Source of the DNA: an uncultured Methylobacter sp.
GTDB lineage: Bacteria > Pseudomonadota > Gammaproteobacteria > Methylococcales > Methylomonadaceae
Reading direction: 5' to 3'
NCBI GenBank assembly: GCA_903831545.1
Contig: CAIKYI010000770.1
Span: 1-11,242, forward strand
Length of the DNA stretch: 11,242 bases
Each line of letters opens with the position of its first letter. The first letter of the stretch is position 1. The notes under the pieces are model-generated. The model did not search any database, was not told where the DNA came from, and worked only from the letters and a program-made list of their open reading frames with translations. Positions 2,936-11,242 of the stretch are shown here, one piece after another. The position numbers were made by a program, and so were the translations under genes.

Positions 2936-5749
2936 CTAAAACTCTTCCCATTCATCAATATCAACCTTACGTGGCTGTAGTTGCGGCTTAATGCCGCTGA
3001 TCGGTGTTTTATCTTTTATGATTTCCTGCATCTTTTGCGGTTGAAAAATTGGACTGATTGAATAATCGTCTATTTTAAAGCTGGCGACGGTATCCACCAG
3101 ACTTTTTGCCTGCTCTTCAAGTGATTCCGCCGCAGCTGCCGCTTGCTCCACCAAGGCTGCATTTTGCTGGGTAACATCATCCATCTGGGCAATGGCCTGA
3201 TTGACCTGCTCAATGCCGGAAGTTTGTTCAATTGAGGCAGAGCTGATTTCGGTCATCATCGCGGTAACACCCTGGATGGCGTTAACGATTTCTTCCATGG
3301 TTTGTCCGGCTTGCGCCACCAGCTTGGTACCATCGGCAACTTTAACCACCGAGTCGCCAATTAAGCCCTTAATCTCTCCCGCTGCTGCAGCTGCACGTTG
3401 GGCAAGATTACGCACTTCAACTGCAACCACCGCAAAGCCACGACCTTGATCACCGGCACGCGCCGCTTCTACCGCTGCATTTAACGCCAGTATATTGGTC
3501 TGGAAAGCAATGTCATCAATGACTGAAATAATATCAACAATTTTGTTTGAAGCGGAGCTGATGTCTTGCATGGTAGTTACAACTTCACCAACGACTTTAA
3601 CTCCATTGCCCGCGATATCTGATGCGCTAACCGCAAGTGCGTTGGCCTGTTTGGCATGTGCGGTATTAGCTTGCACAGTAGAGGTCAGTTCTTCCATGCT
3701 GGCAGCGGTTTGTTCCAGGCTGGCGGCTTGCTCTTCGGTACGGTGCGATAGATCATTATTTCCGGCAGCAATTTCTTTAGCCCCGGTGTTAATATTATGC
3801 GAGGCATCTTTGATGCTAGTGACTATTTCTCTTAACTTGTCCACGGTGATATTGGCGTCTTCTTTCAGTTGGCCAAAAGTACCGGAATATTCATTACTTA
3901 TTTTCTCGGTCAGATCGCCACGCGATAGCGCATCAAGTACCCTTACAACCTCATTAAGACCAATTTCACTGGTGCTTAATAATTGGTTAAGACCTTCACC
4001 CAGTTCACGAATAAACCCCTGTTTGCCTGTTAACACAAAACGCCGGGTAAAATCACCACGGATGGCTGACTCTACCAACATCGCCACTTCTTTTTCTACG
4101 GCAACTTCCGCAGTACGATCCTGCCACTCGGCGACTGTACCCAGTCGTTGGCCCAATTCGTTTATAACCGGACTGGCCGTGACCACTATGGCGTGACCGC
4201 CAATATTCATACTCGCTGTGTAGGTGTGGTCTAAGCTGGAAAGTAATTGCAATTGGTGCGTAGAATTAACATGGAAACTGTCAATATTGCTACCAACCAG
4301 ATGATTAGCTGAAAAGTCCGGTAATTGTTTACGGATATCTGTTTCGGCCTTGCTCAAAATATTGACCACGGCTTTATTGGCGTAAATAATATTTCTGGCG
4401 TTATCCGCAATCATCACGCTGGTATTAACATTATCCAGCCCCATTTTAATGCGCAAGTTCTCCTCGGCAATACGTTTATTTTCTGTAACCTCAAAACCAA
4501 GTTTTGTTTGCATTGCTTTAAGAGCTTCCAGAACTTTACCCGTTTCATCCTGATGTTCAAGTTCGACAATATTACGGTAATTGCCTTGGGCGATCTGACC
4601 AAAGTGGCCAATCACGGCATTAAGTGGCCGGGTAATACTGCGGATTAACGCTACGCCTAACCAAAGAGCTAATATAATGCCCGCACCCGTCAAAGCGAGA
4701 ACACTTCTTTTTGTCGTTTCATAGCGAATTTGTGCTGCATTGAACTCCTGTTTGGCGACCTCTATCTGTAAGTGCAACAACTTTTGAATGCCGACACTAA
4801 CGGGTTCATAAAAAGGCCTGATCCTGTTGGCAATCATGGTATTGGCCAGCACCATTTCATTACTTCGCAAGGCCGATAGCACTGGTTTAAAGCCCTCCAC
4901 TTCCAAACGCTTTATGTCTTCAGCAAACTTGTCGGCCAGTTTCTTTTCCTCGGGTGTGAGATAAGTATTAGTATAGGCATTCCAGGTCTTGCCAATTTCC
5001 TGGTTGTTTTGTTCCACCTCCTCTACAGATTTCAGAATGACTTCAGGCGTCGAATTGATAAGGGATGCGGTAATTCGCACCCTATTGGTCAATAACAACT
5101 TCTGAATAAGCGCAAGTTGATCCATAGGTATGGTACGATCTTCATACACAGTTCGCAGACCGTCATTGGTCATACTCATGCCCGCTAAACCCATCCCGCC
5201 TATTGCAATCATAAGTAAGGACAACAAACCGATAACAATCGACAGGCGGATTCTAATAGTAAGATTTTTAGCTACCTTCAATTTTGACAGTAAGGTTGAT
5301 TTTATGACCTTGCCGTCTTCTATTTTAAGACCACCGGCCTTACCTTCGCGAAATAACCGGTAAGCCGCAGCTGCCGTTTGCATTTGCTCATAACTGGTTT
5401 TACTACGCACCGACATATAACCGACCAGCACATCGTTTTCATAGGTTGGCATGGCATTGGCTAACACCCAGTAAAAATCTCCGTTTTTGCAGCGATTTTT
5501 AACCATTCCAGTCCACGGACGACCTTCTTTTAATACTTGCCACATATCCTCGAAGGCTTCGGGCGGCATGTCGGGATGACGTACAATATTTTGTGACGAT
5601 CCAATTAACTCTTGTCGGGTAAAGCCGCTAACCCTGACAAAGTCATCGTTGATGTAGGTAATTATTCCTTTTAAATCAGTTTTGGAAACAATCAAGTCAT
5701 AGTCTGTAAGACTATATTCAACGTCAGTTACCGGCATATTCATTTTCAT
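2936..5749 (-). CDS. Aer-type PAS methyl-accepting chemotaxis protein
   Basis: Membrane chemoreceptor expected to control the CheA kinase. Domain order over 937 residues: Aer-like PAS (about 10-118); TM1 (about 169-191); periplasmic four-helix-type region (about 192-346); TM2 (about 349-369); HAMP (370-422); a divergent PAS-like segment (about 432-548); two further HAMP-like stretches (about 555-600 and 600-645); MCP signalling domain (about 650-890). The first PAS has VRHPDMP with R57, H58, D60 and W79 at the same numbering as the FAD-contact residues of E. coli Aer, so bound FAD and redox or oxygen sensing are likely. The MCP tip is intact: [20 protein letters not shown] (745-764). EQTAASMEE near 679-687 looks like an adaptation site. 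The protein ends in EWEEF, a WxxF-type CheR tether, after a flexible linker of about 40 residues. The ATG at 5747-5749 has GAGA upstream; Met3 and Met5 are possible alternatives. No other che gene is in view, so signalling partners lie elsewhere. Confidence 0.95.
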
Positions 5750-6125: not shown

Positions 6126-8669
6126 TCATATTCCACAAATGACCTTTAATGACACTCTGGAAAGTTCACTCAGTAGCAATTCAAACTCCGCTAGCGGTAT
6201 CGGTCTACTATACAAATATCCCTGATAGGCCAGACAGCCCTGGCGTTCCAGACAAAGCTGCTGCTCTTCAGTCTCAACGCCTTCGGCGATCACGTTAAGA
6301 CCAAGATTATTGGCCATGCCGATAATAGTCTGGATGATCGCGGCGTCGTTCTGGTCGGTGATAAGGTCACGCACAAAGGATTGATCGATTTTTAACTGGT
6401 ATAGCGGTAGTTTCTTCAGGTAACTCAACGAAGAGTAACCGGTACCAAAATCATCCATGGAAAACTGAATACCCAGCAGCTTCAGGGTGTGCATCTTTTC
6501 GATGGTTTCTGCAACATTGTGCATGACCAGGCTTTCGGTGAGCTCCAGCTTTAGCAGCTTTGCATTTGCGCCTGTCTGTACCAATATCTTGCACATTTGC
6601 TTGACGAAATAAGGCTGACTGAACTGACGCACACTGACATTGACCGCCAGCTGTAAATCCTGGGTAAGCGGACTATTCTCCCAGTCTTTAAGTTGCTGGC
6701 ATGCGCTGCGCATGACCCAGTCACCAATCGGCAGGATCAAACCGGTTTCTTCCGCGATAGGAATAAAGTCGGCAGGGGAAATAAAACCAAGCTGCGGATG
6801 AAGCCAGCGTAACAGCACTTCTGCCCCAAATACGCGGCGTTTGGAATCCACCTGAATTTGATAATATAGAGCTAATTGATTTTCCAGTAAGGCATTGCGC
6901 AGATCCGCTTCCAGCATTACCCGACTTTCCAGTAAGGTCTGCATGTCCGGATCGAAAAAACACAGCGTATTACGCCCGTCATGTTTTGCCTCATACATGG
7001 CGGTATCAGCGAACTTAAGCAATTCCTCACCCGTTAACTTGGCACCGGAAAACAGACTGATACCTATACTGGCCGAACTATGGAGTTTATGTCCGCCCAG
7101 CAGATACGGCTGGTTTATCACGGCCAGAATTTTTTCAGCAACACCTTTGGCTTGCAATGCGGCTTTAGCTTGGTTTTTATTTAATTCTTCGAGCAAGATA
7201 ACAAACTCATCGCCTCCCAATCTCGCCAGAGTATCGCCCTGACGTATGCAGGCTTTTAAGCGTTTTGCCACATCAATCAGTAACTGATCGCCAATTCCAT
7301 GGCCCTTGGTATCATTGATGGACTTGAAGTTATCAAGGTCAATCATCAGGATTGCAGAATAGAGCCGGTTTCGGCTACTCATGCTAATTGCCAGTCCCAG
7401 GCGATCGTTAAGCAGCCTTCGATTGGGAAGATCTGTTAAAGGATCGTAAAAGGCAAGACGATGAATGGCCGCTTCCGCATCTTTATGTTCGCTAAGATCT
7501 GTAAAAGCACCGACATAAATGGTCACTTGCCCGGCAAGGTCGGTAACCGCAGTAATAGTCAGCCATTTGGGATAAATTTCGCCACTTTTACGCCGATCCC
7601 ACACCTCGCCCTGCCAGTATTTTTCCGGTATCAATTTATCCCACATGGCTTTATAAAATGCGCCATCATGTCGATCTGACTTCAATATGGCGGGGGTTTT
7701 ACCGATCACTTCTGCAGGGTAATAGCCAGTAAGTCGGGTAAAGGCACTATTGACACGCAAGATGCGGTTATTGGCATCGGTAATCATAATGCCCTCCTGA
7801 GCTTCTATTGCTATTGCGGCAATACGAAGCTCCCGCTCGGTCAATCTGTGTTCGGTGATGTCACGACCAATGACAACCAATCCCTTGCGTTTACCGCTGA
7901 TCTCGAACAACGGTGCCTTACGCATCTCGAATTCACGACAACTGCCCGTTTCGTCGAAGATAGTCTGCTCTGAAAAATACAGTTTGCGCGCATTCCAGGC
8001 CGACTCATCATCGCTAACACATTGTTTGTGCAGGCTACGCATCTCTGGACATTCGATGGCCAGCTCCAAACTCGTCTTGCCTTGCCAGACAACATCATTA
8101 AGATTAAAAAGTTTCCTGGCAAGTCCATTAACAAATAGTAATCGTCCCTCGCCATCTTTAAAAAAAATGGCATCAGGAATGGTTTCCATGAGTGTGGTGA
8201 GTTGTTTACTGCGCAGCCTGAGAGCCGTTTCGCTGTTTTTTAAGTCGTGTTGTGACTTTTTCCGTTGTTCAATCTCTTGTTCAAGCTCTGCCGGCGAGGG
8301 CAGGCGTAAGGCTTGTGGCATTATCCGAACCAGACAAATCGCCGTGGCAATGGAAAGTACTGCTGTGATAATTTTTAAAATAGCATCAACCCAATACAAC
8401 GGTTGCCATAACAGTAAAATGGAAAATAAATGGGTGGTGCCGCAAGCTAGAATAAAAGCACTGAACATTAAAAATATCCCGCGAAATTGCAGGTCTTTTC
8501 GATGTAAGACAAAGTAACCGAGCGCAAAAGGAATGGAATAATAAGACAGTGCAATCAGCCCATCTGAAATCACATAAGACCAGACTATACTGGTTGTCCA
8601 ATGAAGGCAGAAACCATGAGGCATCCAGCCGTTTCCGCCCACTAAATCATTAAGGATTATTTCAAACAT
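6126..8669 (-). CDS. Ethylene-receptor-like sensor with PAS-PAS-GGDEF-EAL (c-di-GMP enzyme)
   Basis: Membrane sensor predicted to make and/or degrade cyclic di-GMP. The N-terminus (about 20-118) has three hydrophobic helices resembling the ethylene-binding domain of plant ETR1 and cyanobacterial relatives: SDGLIALSYYSIP (35-47), FILACGTTH (72-80) and LKIITAVLS (98-106). ETR1 residues Asp25, Tyr32, Ile62, Cys65, His69 and Lys91 correspond to D36, Y43, I73, C76, H80 and K99; Cys/His bind Cu(I) in ETR1. PAS domains follow at about 150-275 and 281-397. The GGDEF domain (about 400-570) has intact GGDEF at 485-489 and an inhibitory RxxD site (RQGD, 476-479). The EAL domain (about 578-835) has the common EVL variant (617-619), NVS (677-679), DDFGTGYSS (739-747), K760 and EGVET (796-800), so both activities look possible. 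AGGAG at 8675-8679, 5 bases from the ATG, supports the start. Azospirillum brasilense AzoEtr1 is a known ethylene receptor with a diguanylate cyclase output; ligand identity here is inference. Confidence 0.93.
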   Translation of the reverse strand: MFEIILNDLVGGNGWMPHGFCLHWTTSIVWSYVISDGLIALSYYSIPFALGYFVLHRKDLQFRGIFLMFSAFILACGTTHLFSILLLWQPLYWVDAILKIITAVLSIATAICLVRIMPQALRLPSPAELEQEIEQRKKSQHDLKNSETALRLRSKQLTTLMETIPDAIFFKDGEGRLLFVNGLARKLFNLNDVVWQGKTSLELAIECPEMRSLHKQCVSDDESAWNARKLYFSEQTIFDETGSCREFEMRKAPLFEISGKRKGLVVIGRDITEHRLTERELRIAAIAIEAQEGIMITDANNRILRVNSAFTRLTGYYPAEVIGKTPAILKSDRHDGAFYKAMWDKLIPEKYWQGEVWDRRKSGEIYPKWLTITAVTDLAGQVTIYVGAFTDLSEHKDAEAAIHRLAFYDPLTDLPNRRLLNDRLGLAISMSSRNRLYSAILMIDLDNFKSINDTKGHGIGDQLLIDVAKRLKACIRQGDTLARLGGDEFVILLEELNKNQAKAALQAKGVAEKILAVINQPYLLGGHKLHSSASIGISLFSGAKLTGEELLKFADTAMYEAKHDGRNTLCFFDPDMQTLLESRVMLEADLRNALLENQLALYYQIQVDSKRRVFGAEVLLRWLHPQLGFISPADFIPIAEETGLILPIGDWVMRSACQQLKDWENSPLTQDLQLAVNVSVRQFSQPYFVKQMCKILVQTGANAKLLKLELTESLVMHNVAETIEKMHTLKLLGIQFSMDDFGTGYSSLSYLKKLPLYQLKIDQSFVRDLITDQNDAAIIQTIIGMANNLGLNVIAEGVETEEQQLCLERQGCLAYQGYLYSRPIPLAEFELLLSELSRVSLKVICGI

Positions 8670-8749: not shown

Positions 8750-8951
8750 AAGACGCTGTTTTTTTTATGGAAATTATTTTTCACCAAATCCCTAATACCG
8801 ATAACCATCTTCTTAAACAGACATCCGCAAGAACAAATACTTTCTGTCCCCTGAATTACGGTATAAAAGCGTGTGGAACAGATTGACAGTAACCTGAAGA
8901 AATCCGGGCAGAACCTTTTCGAGTGAAAATCGTCCTTAATGATGGGCAGAC

Positions 8952-9026
<75 letters not shown>

Positions 9027-9444
9027 AGTTGACGCAGGACATCATAGACAAGCAAAACGCTACCAATATATGTGGCATTCGACTTGTACAGAGATTGATT
9101 GGTATAGCGAATTATAGCTGGGTGGTTGAACACGCTCGTCTCCTGCCTTTTAAGGCAATTCGTCAATTTCCGCTTATGAAAAAAAATCATTACGGGTAGT
9201 TTAACGAGACGTGTTCTGGGTCTCACTGAATCGGTGCCGGGGGCAGGGGCAAACCGAATATATCTGGTTATTTGCAGCTTGATTGACGAAAAAACTTAGC
9301 CACTCAAATACTGCAATTAAATGTTATAAGAAAAACTATCTCACTGCAATACGTATAAATACCTAGTTGAATAAATCAGCTTGTGCGGCATAGCTTACTC
9401 CACTGTCATTAAATTACACCTCGCTAGAATATAATACTGCTGGA
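9027..9444. other. Non-coding stretch, nothing recognised
   Basis: AT-rich sequence between the GATA tract and the tandem hairpins, downstream of the kinase/ANTAR operon. A TATAAT at 9430-9435 (plus strand) has no matching -35 and no gene downstream. GAGAC and GTCTC near 9205-9222 form a short inverted repeat of doubtful meaning. No RNA gene or protein was recognised. Confidence 0.5.
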
Positions 9445-9566: not shown

Positions 9567-10172
9567 CTAATCCATAAGATTATTAACTTCAATGGCTTTG
9601 ATAACATCCCTGGCAAATTCAGCCAGCTTTTGTTGCTGGCTGCGTGCCGTTTTGCGTAACATTTCAAAAGCTGCTTTTCGGCTCAATTTATATTTAGCCA
9701 TGGTGATGCCTACGGCAATACTGATTTCCCGTTCACTATCCAGAGCGTTTTGCAACTGCTGCTCGGTAGTCCTCAGCTTACGTAACTCTTCCGCCCGAGC
9801 CAGAGCAGACTCGATGCTCGGCACTAATTGCTGCGAATCAATCGGCTTTACCAGATAACCTAAAGAGCCACTGGAAGCCGCCTTCTCGACATTCTCACTG
9901 TCGTTATACGCAGTCAGGAACATAAAAGGAATGTGATCCAGTAATCGCAAGCGTTCCGCAAGCTGCAAACCGCTCTTGCCAGGCATGCTGACATCAAGAA
10001 TGGCAAGGTCTGGCCGCTCGCCACTGGCCAATAAAGCTTCCGCATCGTCTGCAGATTCCGCGGTACTGACCTTATAGCCCGCCGTGACCAAACCTTGTGC
10101 AAGTGTCATCAGTACCAGACGATCATCATCGACAAGTAGAAGATTGGGCTTGTTGCTGGCATTTACATTCAT
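9567..10172 (-). CDS. Response regulator with ANTAR RNA-binding output (REC-ANTAR)
   Basis: Cytoplasmic response regulator predicted to act by transcription antitermination: phosphorylated ANTAR proteins (AmiR, NasR, EutV type) dimerise and bind paired hairpins in nascent RNA. The receiver domain (about 10-125 of 201) is complete, with acidic residues D15-D17, phospho-acceptor D60 in AILDVSMPG, T87 in FLTAY and K109 in LVKP. A coiled-coil-like linker (125-145) leads to the ANTAR domain (about 140-196), recognisable by ISIAVGITMAKYKLSRKAAF and MLRKTARSQQQKLAEFA. Length is normal for the family. The ATG at 10170-10172 overlaps the kinase stop codon as ATGA, implying translational coupling and a cognate pair, like EutW/EutV. 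The target transcripts are not evident: no leader with two hexaloop hairpins carrying A at loop position 1 and G at position 4 was found in the window. Confidence 0.93.
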   Translation of the reverse strand: MNVNASNKPNLLLVDDDRLVLMTLAQGLVTAGYKVSTAESADDAEALLASGERPDLAILDVSMPGKSGLQLAERLRLLDHIPFMFLTAYNDSENVEKAASSGSLGYLVKPIDSQQLVPSIESALARAEELRKLRTTEQQLQNALDSEREISIAVGITMAKYKLSRKAAFEMLRKTARSQQQKLAEFARDVIKAIEVNNLMD

Positions 10173-11242
10173 ATGCTCGATTCCAGTTGAATAACAGGCT
10201 CATCCAAGTTCAAGGTGGTAATGACAATACCGTTCTGCTGTGACCAGGTCAAGCTGGCACCAGCTCTGGGTAACAATGATACGGCCAGCTGCAAGCCGGT
10301 GCCGAAACTGGTCGTATCCTCAAGCCCGAAGCCGGCCGGTAGCTGTCCCGTATTATGAATATCCAGCCGAATTGAAGCGGGATGGGGCTGATGGCTAAGT
10401 CTAACTCTGACCGACTCCTGTTTCGCGCTATGCTTGACTGCATTTAAAATCAACTCGTTAATTACCAGCGCTAATGGCACCGCTTCAGCTTCAGTAATGA
10501 TACAAGGTATCCATCCTTCCGGAATTTCAACAAGAACCGATTTTTGCCACAGTGCTTCGACGCCTGCCGCGATGGCGACCGTCAGTTCACAGGCGCGAAC
10601 CGACGACGTAACTGCGCGACCTTGCAATCCGTGTATAACAGAAATACTTTGCACCTGGCTGATAGCCTGATTAATGGGGATCGCTGTTTCAGGGTGTATT
10701 TGAATAAATTGACGCAACATCCCCGTAATACCTTGCAGATTATTCTTGATACGGTGATGCACTTCTCGCACCAGTACGGATCTCAGTGACATTTCGTGCG
10801 CTATCCGCTGGTCTTCAAAGTACTTGCGCTCGGTAAGGTCAATAAAAATGGCTTGTGCCCAAACTCGTCCGTCTATCTTTATCAATGTAGGACGAATTTC
10901 GATATCAACCACCTGACCATTTTTTCGCAGAATTTTTGTTTCAATGGGGGAAAATATTTCGTTTATTACGATATCCTTGAATTTTTTTTGGACTTTAGAC
11001 ATCTCGCTAGCCGGATGAATTTGTGAGATATTCATTCCGCGAAGTTCCTGTTCCGTATACCCCAACAGCAGTTCTCCCGAACGGTTGACTTCTTCTATAT
11101 TGCCCTCCGTATCAACGATCAAGACAGTATCGCTGGCATCTTCTAAAAACGAACGGTAACGCTGCTCTCTTTCCTTGACATCCACTTCAGTCCGCTTTTG
11201 TTCCGTAATGTCAGTTAACAATCCACTCCATAAAATACTGCC
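10169..11242 (-). CDS. PAS sensor histidine kinase, HisKA_2 type (5' end outside window)
   Basis: Sensor kinase predicted to phosphorylate the overlapping ANTAR regulator. The frame is open to the right edge: the first visible codons (GSILWSGLLTDITEQKR) are the end of a PAS/PAC domain, so at least one PAS lies further upstream. The TTG at 11221 is not a credible start. In the 357 visible residues, a full PAS domain spans about 27-138, followed by the HisKA_2 phospho-acceptor motif EVHHRIKNNLQ (160-170, His163 the likely site) and a HATPase. The ATPase has an N-box NELILN (262-267) and a glycine-rich FGTGLQLAVSLLPR. The usual G1 box Asp (DxG) is replaced: LDIHNTG reads Asn at 297, possibly typical of this sub-group. 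No membrane segment is visible, so this part is cytoplasmic. The stop overlaps the regulator's ATG by 4 bases. PAS + HisKA_2 kinases paired with ANTAR regulators are known (EutW/EutV); the signal sensed is unknown. Confidence 0.92.
   Translation of the reverse strand, partial: GSILWSGLLTDITEQKRTEVDVKEREQRYRSFLEDASDTVLIVDTEGNIEEVNRSGELLLGYTEQELRGMNISQIHPASEMSKVQKKFKDIVINEIFSPIETKILRKNGQVVDIEIRPTLIKIDGRVWAQAIFIDLTERKYFEDQRIAHEMSLRSVLVREVHHRIKNNLQGITGMLRQFIQIHPETAIPINQAISQVQSISVIHGLQGRAVTSSVRACELTVAIAAGVEALWQKSVLVEIPEGWIPCIITEAEAVPLALVINELILNAVKHSAKQESVRVRLSHQPHPASIRLDIHNTGQLPAGFGLEDTTSFGTGLQLAVSLLPRAGASLTWSQQNGIVITTLNLDEPVIQLESSI

Follow-up and report, generated by a model that had tools for sequence, protein, structure and literature searches.

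We analysed a stretch of 11,242 nucleotides from an uncultured Methylobacter sp., which is referred to as the window throughout its whole length. The minus strand of the window carries, in this order, a PAS-HisKA_2 kinase, an ANTAR response regulator, a receptor gene and a chemoreceptor, with an RNA element and a microsatellite located between the regulator and the receptor:

10169..11242, minus strand: PAS-HisKA_2 sensor kinase (Pfam), truncated where the window stops; retained in the three loci that also retain the ANTAR regulator
9567..10172, minus strand: response regulator with an ANTAR (RNA-binding) domain (Pfam); retained in three of the four orthologous loci that could be read
9122..9258, minus strand: conserved, structured RNA lying between the genes for the ANTAR regulator and the receptor (covariance model); candidate leader or sRNA
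8948..9026, plus strand: microsatellite of 19.8 AGAT copies, located between the receptor start codon and the RNA element (repeat search)
6126..8669, minus strand: ETR1_N-PAS-PAS-GGDEF-EAL receptor gene, 847 aa (ORF and Pfam)
2936..5749, minus strand: methyl-accepting chemotaxis protein with PAS, downstream of the receptor; retained in three of the five orthologous loci that could be read

Within the receptor gene, the following parts were located:

8598..8621, minus strand: PHGFCLHW, the N-terminal PHGxCxxW motif before helix 1 (motif scan)
8301..8588, minus strand: ETR1_N ethylene-binding-type three-helix domain, aa 28-123 (Pfam PF25487 and predicted helices)
8430..8444, minus strand: C76 to H80, aligned with the ETR1 Cu(I) ligands Cys65/His69 (alignment; ligand role from PMC11819568)
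7857..8201, minus strand: PAS domain 1, aa 157-271 (Pfam)
7488..7796, minus strand: PAS domain 2, aa 292-394 (Pfam)
6969..7454, minus strand: GGDEF domain, aa 406-567, with motif and I-site intact (Pfam, motifs)
6201..6908, minus strand: EAL domain, aa 588-823, with motifs intact (Pfam, motifs)

In the Pfam profile search of the 847-residue ORF, ETR1_N scored 124.6 bits (cut-off 27; E 1.9e-36), and the identity of the sensor as an ETR1_N domain is secure as a sequence assignment. The preliminary description had called the protein an ethylene-receptor-type sensor with a dual GGDEF-EAL output and had proposed a profile search of the N-terminal domain. That search revealed clear membership in ETR1_N, far over the cut-off, and the ORF (6126-8669, minus strand), its coordinates and every residue named there proved right in the ORF and in the ETR1 alignment. 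The motif check found both domains of the GGDEF-EAL tandem with catalytic motifs, in agreement with the earlier statement that the GGDEF, I-site and EAL motifs look intact. In particular, the GGDEF domain contained GGDEF at 485 and the I-site RxxD at 476, and the EAL domain contained E-x-L-x-R at 617 (reading EVLLR), N-x-S at 677, ELTE at 709, DDFG at 739, K-x-D at 760, AEGVE at 795 and QGY at 816. No histidine kinase output was found in the protein by Pfam, and GGDEF-EAL stood in its place; because of this output, the protein falls outside the histidine-kinase subgroup of ethylene receptors (ETR1, SynEtr1 and AzoEtr1). The best NCBIfam match was the DibA phosphodiesterase model NF045675 (aa 266-829, 628.7 bits), which was under its curated cut-off of 980 and left the sensor domain outside the matched span.

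Predicted binding-site residues and known ethylene receptors

Upon alignment with ETR1, we found that D36, Y43, I46 and P47 of the window protein correspond to ETR1 D25, Y32, I35 and P36, and that I73, C76, H80 and K99 correspond to I62, C65, H69 and K91. Which seven ETR1 residues are needed for ethylene binding was reportedly established by Wang et al. in 2006. The literature gives the number required by ETR1 as seven, and all seven are present in the window domain (D36, Y43, I46, P47, I73, C76 and H80), along with the counterpart of Lys91. The residues listed earlier were thus correct, but the list was incomplete, as the conserved ETR1 Ile35 (I46) had been left out. The roles of ETR1 C65, D25, H69 and K91 are described in PMC11819568.

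The AlphaFold2 model, which was built from 73 aligned rows, contained three long predicted helices (residues 26-56, 63-88 and 92-122), with a mean pLDDT of 85.2, a pTM of 0.71 and averages of 88-95 for the ten-residue blocks from 31 to 120. C76 and H80 were both in the predicted second helix, four residues (one turn) apart. The structure prediction suggested for Cys76/His80 in the preliminary description therefore gave the i, i+4 spacing in a confident helix. A helix-face test by residue numbering pointed in the expected direction, with P values of 0.05 for helix 1 and 0.07 for helix 2 that were not significant. Strict PHGxCxxW was found before helix 1 in 92 of 100 Methylococcales-set rows, in 75 of 76 other rows, which were found through patterns from conserved stretches or by similarity and so lean to conserved members, and in 12 of 12 further rows, which were the best-scoring of their searches and lean the same way. 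This motif, which was not seen in AtETR1, could provide an extra metal ligand or a structural cap near the putative copper site.

Three known receptors were compared with the window protein. AzoEtr1 from Azospirillum brasilense contains the same ETR1_N domain, and the window was 52% identical to it over 113 aa. Its residues D35, C75, H79 and K98, as given in PMC11819568, match those of the window one position apart, and in both proteins a PAS domain follows the helices. The outputs are different, as AzoEtr1 signals through a histidine kinase and an adjacent response regulator according to the same paper, in contrast to the GGDEF-EAL output of the window protein. PMC11819568 describes AzoEtr1 as a 525-aa protein with PAS and histidine kinase domains, and we found at the A. 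brasilense Sp7 plasmid locus, where the database record carries no annotated genes, a 525-aa ORF from an ATG, with D35, C75, H79 and K98 in place, that also showed PAS and a histidine kinase. AzoEtr1 had previously been put forward as a receptor with a diguanylate cyclase output; both sources rule it out as such a precedent. AzoEtr1[1-130] expressed in yeast showed saturable ethylene binding, as reported in PMC11819568, and the likeness to AzoEtr1 is the strongest support for the ethylene binding that we infer for the window domain. SynEtr1 (slr1212) from Synechocystis, which was compared by description, is an ethylene receptor whose binding domain is of this kind too; it differs in signalling through a light-sensing GAF domain and a histidine kinase (PMC11819568 and PMC7700396). 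Arabidopsis ETR1, whose sequence was entered by hand for the alignment and the identity figure, was 40% identical to the window over 98 aa and contains GAF, kinase and receiver domains in place of the PAS-GGDEF-EAL arrangement.

From this homology, the window protein is probably a membrane receptor of the bacterial ethylene-receptor type, with a putative Cu(I)/ethylene site that signals to c-di-GMP. Most likely, Cu(I) would sit between C76 and H80 within the three N-terminal helices, and ethylene would bind at this site. Ligand binding would then displace the helices; the two PAS domains would relay this movement to GGDEF and EAL, and the net synthesis or breakdown of c-di-GMP may alter as a result. 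We lean towards a predicted net phosphodiesterase, because many tandem GGDEF-EAL proteins are net phosphodiesterases and the best NCBIfam match is likewise to a phosphodiesterase model. The output may be motility or attachment, as suggested by the chemoreceptor gene that adjoins the receptor in several relatives. Several small ligands can occupy Cu(I)-olefin sites, and the site could instead bind another Cu(I) ligand met by methanotrophs, namely propylene, acetylene or carbon monoxide. Ethylene is the ligand shown for AzoEtr1 in PMC11819568, and we consider such a change of ligand highly improbable.

Host, output variation and distribution

The preliminary description had considered a methanotroph host. 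The genus, Methylobacter, and matches to PF02461 (pMMO/AMO) in 68 of the 81 relatives-set genomes agreed with this view, but pMMO itself was not found by the PF02461 search in the incomplete host bin (3.6 Mb, 805 contigs, 72.7% complete), which is one of the 13 genomes without a match. The PF02461 matches lie in its relatives only, and to judge from these the bin itself is presumably methanotrophic.

The host bin contained five ETR1_N genes over the cut-off and one weak match. Two of the five are GGDEF-EAL genes (the window's and L040), and the other three are hybrid kinases with receiver domains. One of these hybrid kinases (L043:2142-4954) has a stop that shares one base with the start of a gene for a response regulator with an HD-GYP-type HD domain. 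This pair is likely a further link from ethylene to c-di-GMP; three of the five ETR1_N genes would then point to c-di-GMP, because two are GGDEF-EAL genes and L043 lies beside the HD-GYP-type regulator. Up to five over-cut-off copies per genome were found (G000, G012, G019 and G072), and the 81-genome relatives set held 103 such places. The 100 rows analysed consisted of 99 of these places, including the window, and the weak row L044; G013:C123, G017:C162, G027:C39 and G029:C251 were left out, although G017:C162 entered later as L141/L244. The weak locus L137 yielded no ORF.

Single-sequence searches assigned to the 100 rows a kinase output in 58, GGDEF-EAL in 34, GGDEF alone in 4 and none found in 4. 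D, Y, P, C, H and K, six residues in all, occurred together in 72 of the 100 rows and in 27 of the 34 GGDEF-EAL rows. All seven binding residues were kept in 68 of the 100 Methylococcales-set rows; the window's predicted binding site is intact and those of nearly a third of its relatives are not, so among some members of the group the domain drifts or serves another purpose. The Cu-ligand positions were the best conserved of eight, with C kept in 98 rows and H in 97 vs 90 for D and 83 for K.

The tree of the domain, which had been proposed earlier, was built by a quick method from 177 rows and 140 columns, and 83 of its 174 inner branches were open. The window grouped with three GGDEF-EAL rows, L120 (G004), L141 and L162, and also with six kinase rows, including L042 from the host bin; this mixed group had moderate support (SH-aLRT 86-90), and no starred set contained the window. 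The GGDEF-EAL label required 14 changes on the tree, at least 5 of which were forced by starred branches. Judged by these sequence comparisons, output modules have been swapped repeatedly among ETR1_N proteins, and input and output have been reshuffled, because the window domain sits in a mixed group with histidine-kinase proteins. Such frequent swapping, the presence of two PAS domains and the apparent lack of ETR1_N in some relatives at the locus would also fit a domain that acts as a passive membrane anchor or dimeriser, with the PAS domains as the sensors. However, an anchor would not be expected to preserve C, H, Y and I selectively in its membrane helices, as is seen over 100 divergent rows, and we consider this reading distinctly unlikely.

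ETR1_N was over the cut-off in 42 of the 81 relatives-set genomes. In the host's family, it was over the cut-off in 117 of 201 genomes, with none over the cut-off in the other 84. The class-wide sample gave 12 of 369, three of the 12 being Methylococcales; the Fisher test on this background took 9 of 365, with four visible order members set aside, and further order members may be present among the 333 unlisted genomes that had no match. The second test family was that of G770, which bears PF02461 and belongs to the host's phylum outside the host's class; we take it to be a family with alphaproteobacterial methanotrophs. In this family, PF02461 was found in 20 of 199 genomes and ETR1_N over the cut-off in 38 of 199. 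ETR1_N was present in 14 of the 20 PF02461-bearing genomes vs 24 of the 179 others (Fisher P 1.6e-7), although the enrichment tests ignore shared descent and the 20 genomes represent three genera and hence few independent events. Enrichment of ETR1_N was thus seen in the host's family and, within G770's family, among the genomes that bear PF02461.

Copper is essential to pMMO, and together with the high conservation of the Cu-ligand positions this would suit an ETR1_N domain that acts here as a Cu(I) sensor for pMMO copper supply, its ethylene binding being incidental or lost. On the other hand, the other ethylene-binding residues (D, Y, I, P and I) are kept in the window too. G556 has three AMO-type genes, and its family, which we take to consist of ammonia oxidisers, had ETR1_N in 5 of 100 genomes, a weak argument against the copper reading, as AMO is known for G556 alone. 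We consider the copper-sensor reading unlikely. Because of this low count, the correlate hinted at is methane monooxygenases rather than copper monooxygenases as such; copper monooxygenases in general were set aside as the correlate on the same count, with the same limit.

Ethylene sensing by a receptor of the proposed type would have an obvious use, because ethylene is a harmful co-substrate of methane monooxygenase in methanotrophs. PMC11507031 reports that ethylene inhibits methanotrophs, also at natural soil levels, and that pMMO oxidises ethylene to toxic epoxyethane, and it describes a detoxification system. Our results suggest that Methylobacter relatives may be able to sense ethylene, a gas harmful to them. 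ETR1_N proteins are not the sole candidate sensors, because PMC11507031 names a MEDS-domain regulator beside the epoxyethane genes of one methanotroph as another candidate hydrocarbon sensor. The word receptor does not occur in the main text of that paper, the one found on ethylene in methanotrophs, and no report of ethylene receptors in methanotrophs was found among the titles listed by a literature search that covered few subscription papers. A wide range of outputs for bacterial ethylene-binding domains is already in print (PMC7700396); what is new is that methanotrophs have the GGDEF-EAL output, how it is distributed and in which genetic setting it occurs. The earlier idea gains interest because of the methanotroph distribution and the linked chemoreceptor. 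Methanotrophs limit methane emission, and a receptor-type ethylene sensor, if true, would tie ethylene from plants and microbes to the methane sink and offer a direct genetic means of testing that tie.

Gene neighbourhood and intergenic features

The kinase and the ANTAR regulator were found upstream of the receptor in L140, L162 and L146 (three of the four loci long enough), and the chemoreceptor was found downstream of it in L140, L141 and L162 (three of the five readable loci). L140 and L162 keep all four genes, the L162 chemoreceptor match being in two pieces; L146 keeps the first three, and L141, whose contig starts near the receptor, keeps the last two. No chemoreceptor of the window's kind was found within 2.9 kb downstream in L146, and L142 showed none of the window's neighbours over the 5 kb upstream and 2.9 kb downstream that were covered. 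L144 was too short for this comparison, and the window's ZIP, GDT1 and PPDK genes fall beyond the ends of most compared loci.

The RNA element was conserved in the window, L140, L162, L141 and L146, and the covariance model from these five rows revealed 18 places, including the window, in 11 of 121 relatives-set genomes. Within 1.5 kb on each side, a close relative of the ANTAR gene lay upstream at 9 of the 18 loci, the window included (E at most 5e-64). Downstream of the element, we found receptor or GGDEF-EAL relatives in L240, L241, L242, L244 and L251, chemoreceptors in L243, L245, L246 and L252, and a receptor fragment in L248; the weaker element matches L253, L255, L256 and L257 had none of the window's genes within 1.5 kb on each side. 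When 20 rows were fitted to the model, 89.9% of the cells paired and 11 of 21 pairs had two-sided changes; the covariation score was reached by 0 of 500 shuffles and the count of further pair types by 3 of 500, in a control that keeps relatedness in and with an alignment that leans to the covariance model. The window element alone folds modestly better than shuffles (z -2.17). When the window was run through cmscan with E values of up to 5, Rfam gave two matches, both away from the element.

The element contains two covarying hairpins with 9-nt consensus loops (judged by eye), and the dual-hairpin pattern of ANTAR targets, in which each of two hairpins has a hexanucleotide loop with A1 and G4, was not found in it. 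We do not propose a pseudoknot between the hairpin-2 loop GAACAC and a downstream GTGTTC, as the loop letters change without a matching change in several rows (by eye). The 3' end of the element resembles a ribosome-binding site and the GTG start of a short ORF, with a VFxQLxI start in several rows. We propose the element as a candidate ANTAR-controlled leader.

At the element loci L242 and L251, from two congeners, the GGDEF-EAL gene has no matching ETR1_N part, and at L243 and L248 the receptor gene is present as fragments only. These four loci suggest receptor decay or sensor exchange, and the receptor is thus dispensable at the element locus. A wider reading is tentative, and we would put it at less than even: two separate lineages of aerobic methanotrophs may have a multi-receptor ethylene network with c-di-GMP outputs for avoiding or withstanding ethylene, and in Methylobacter-type genomes one of the receptors would belong to a module with a chemoreceptor and an ANTAR regulator, the leader of the regulator being a new structured RNA class.

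In a search for viral relatives, two stretches matched a pattern and none was confirmed as a relative. The promoter scan of the window was not above shuffles (7 vs 8.7), and terminator-like sites numbered 7 vs 3.6 in shuffles (sd 1.7), an excess of about two sd. Additionally, the AGAT array lies about 280 bases upstream of the receptor start and is in frame within a short ORF. Among the 41 genomes searched, seven perfect AGAT copies in a row were found in the host bin only, at one place, and the array is a possible phase-variable spacer or a lineage oddity.
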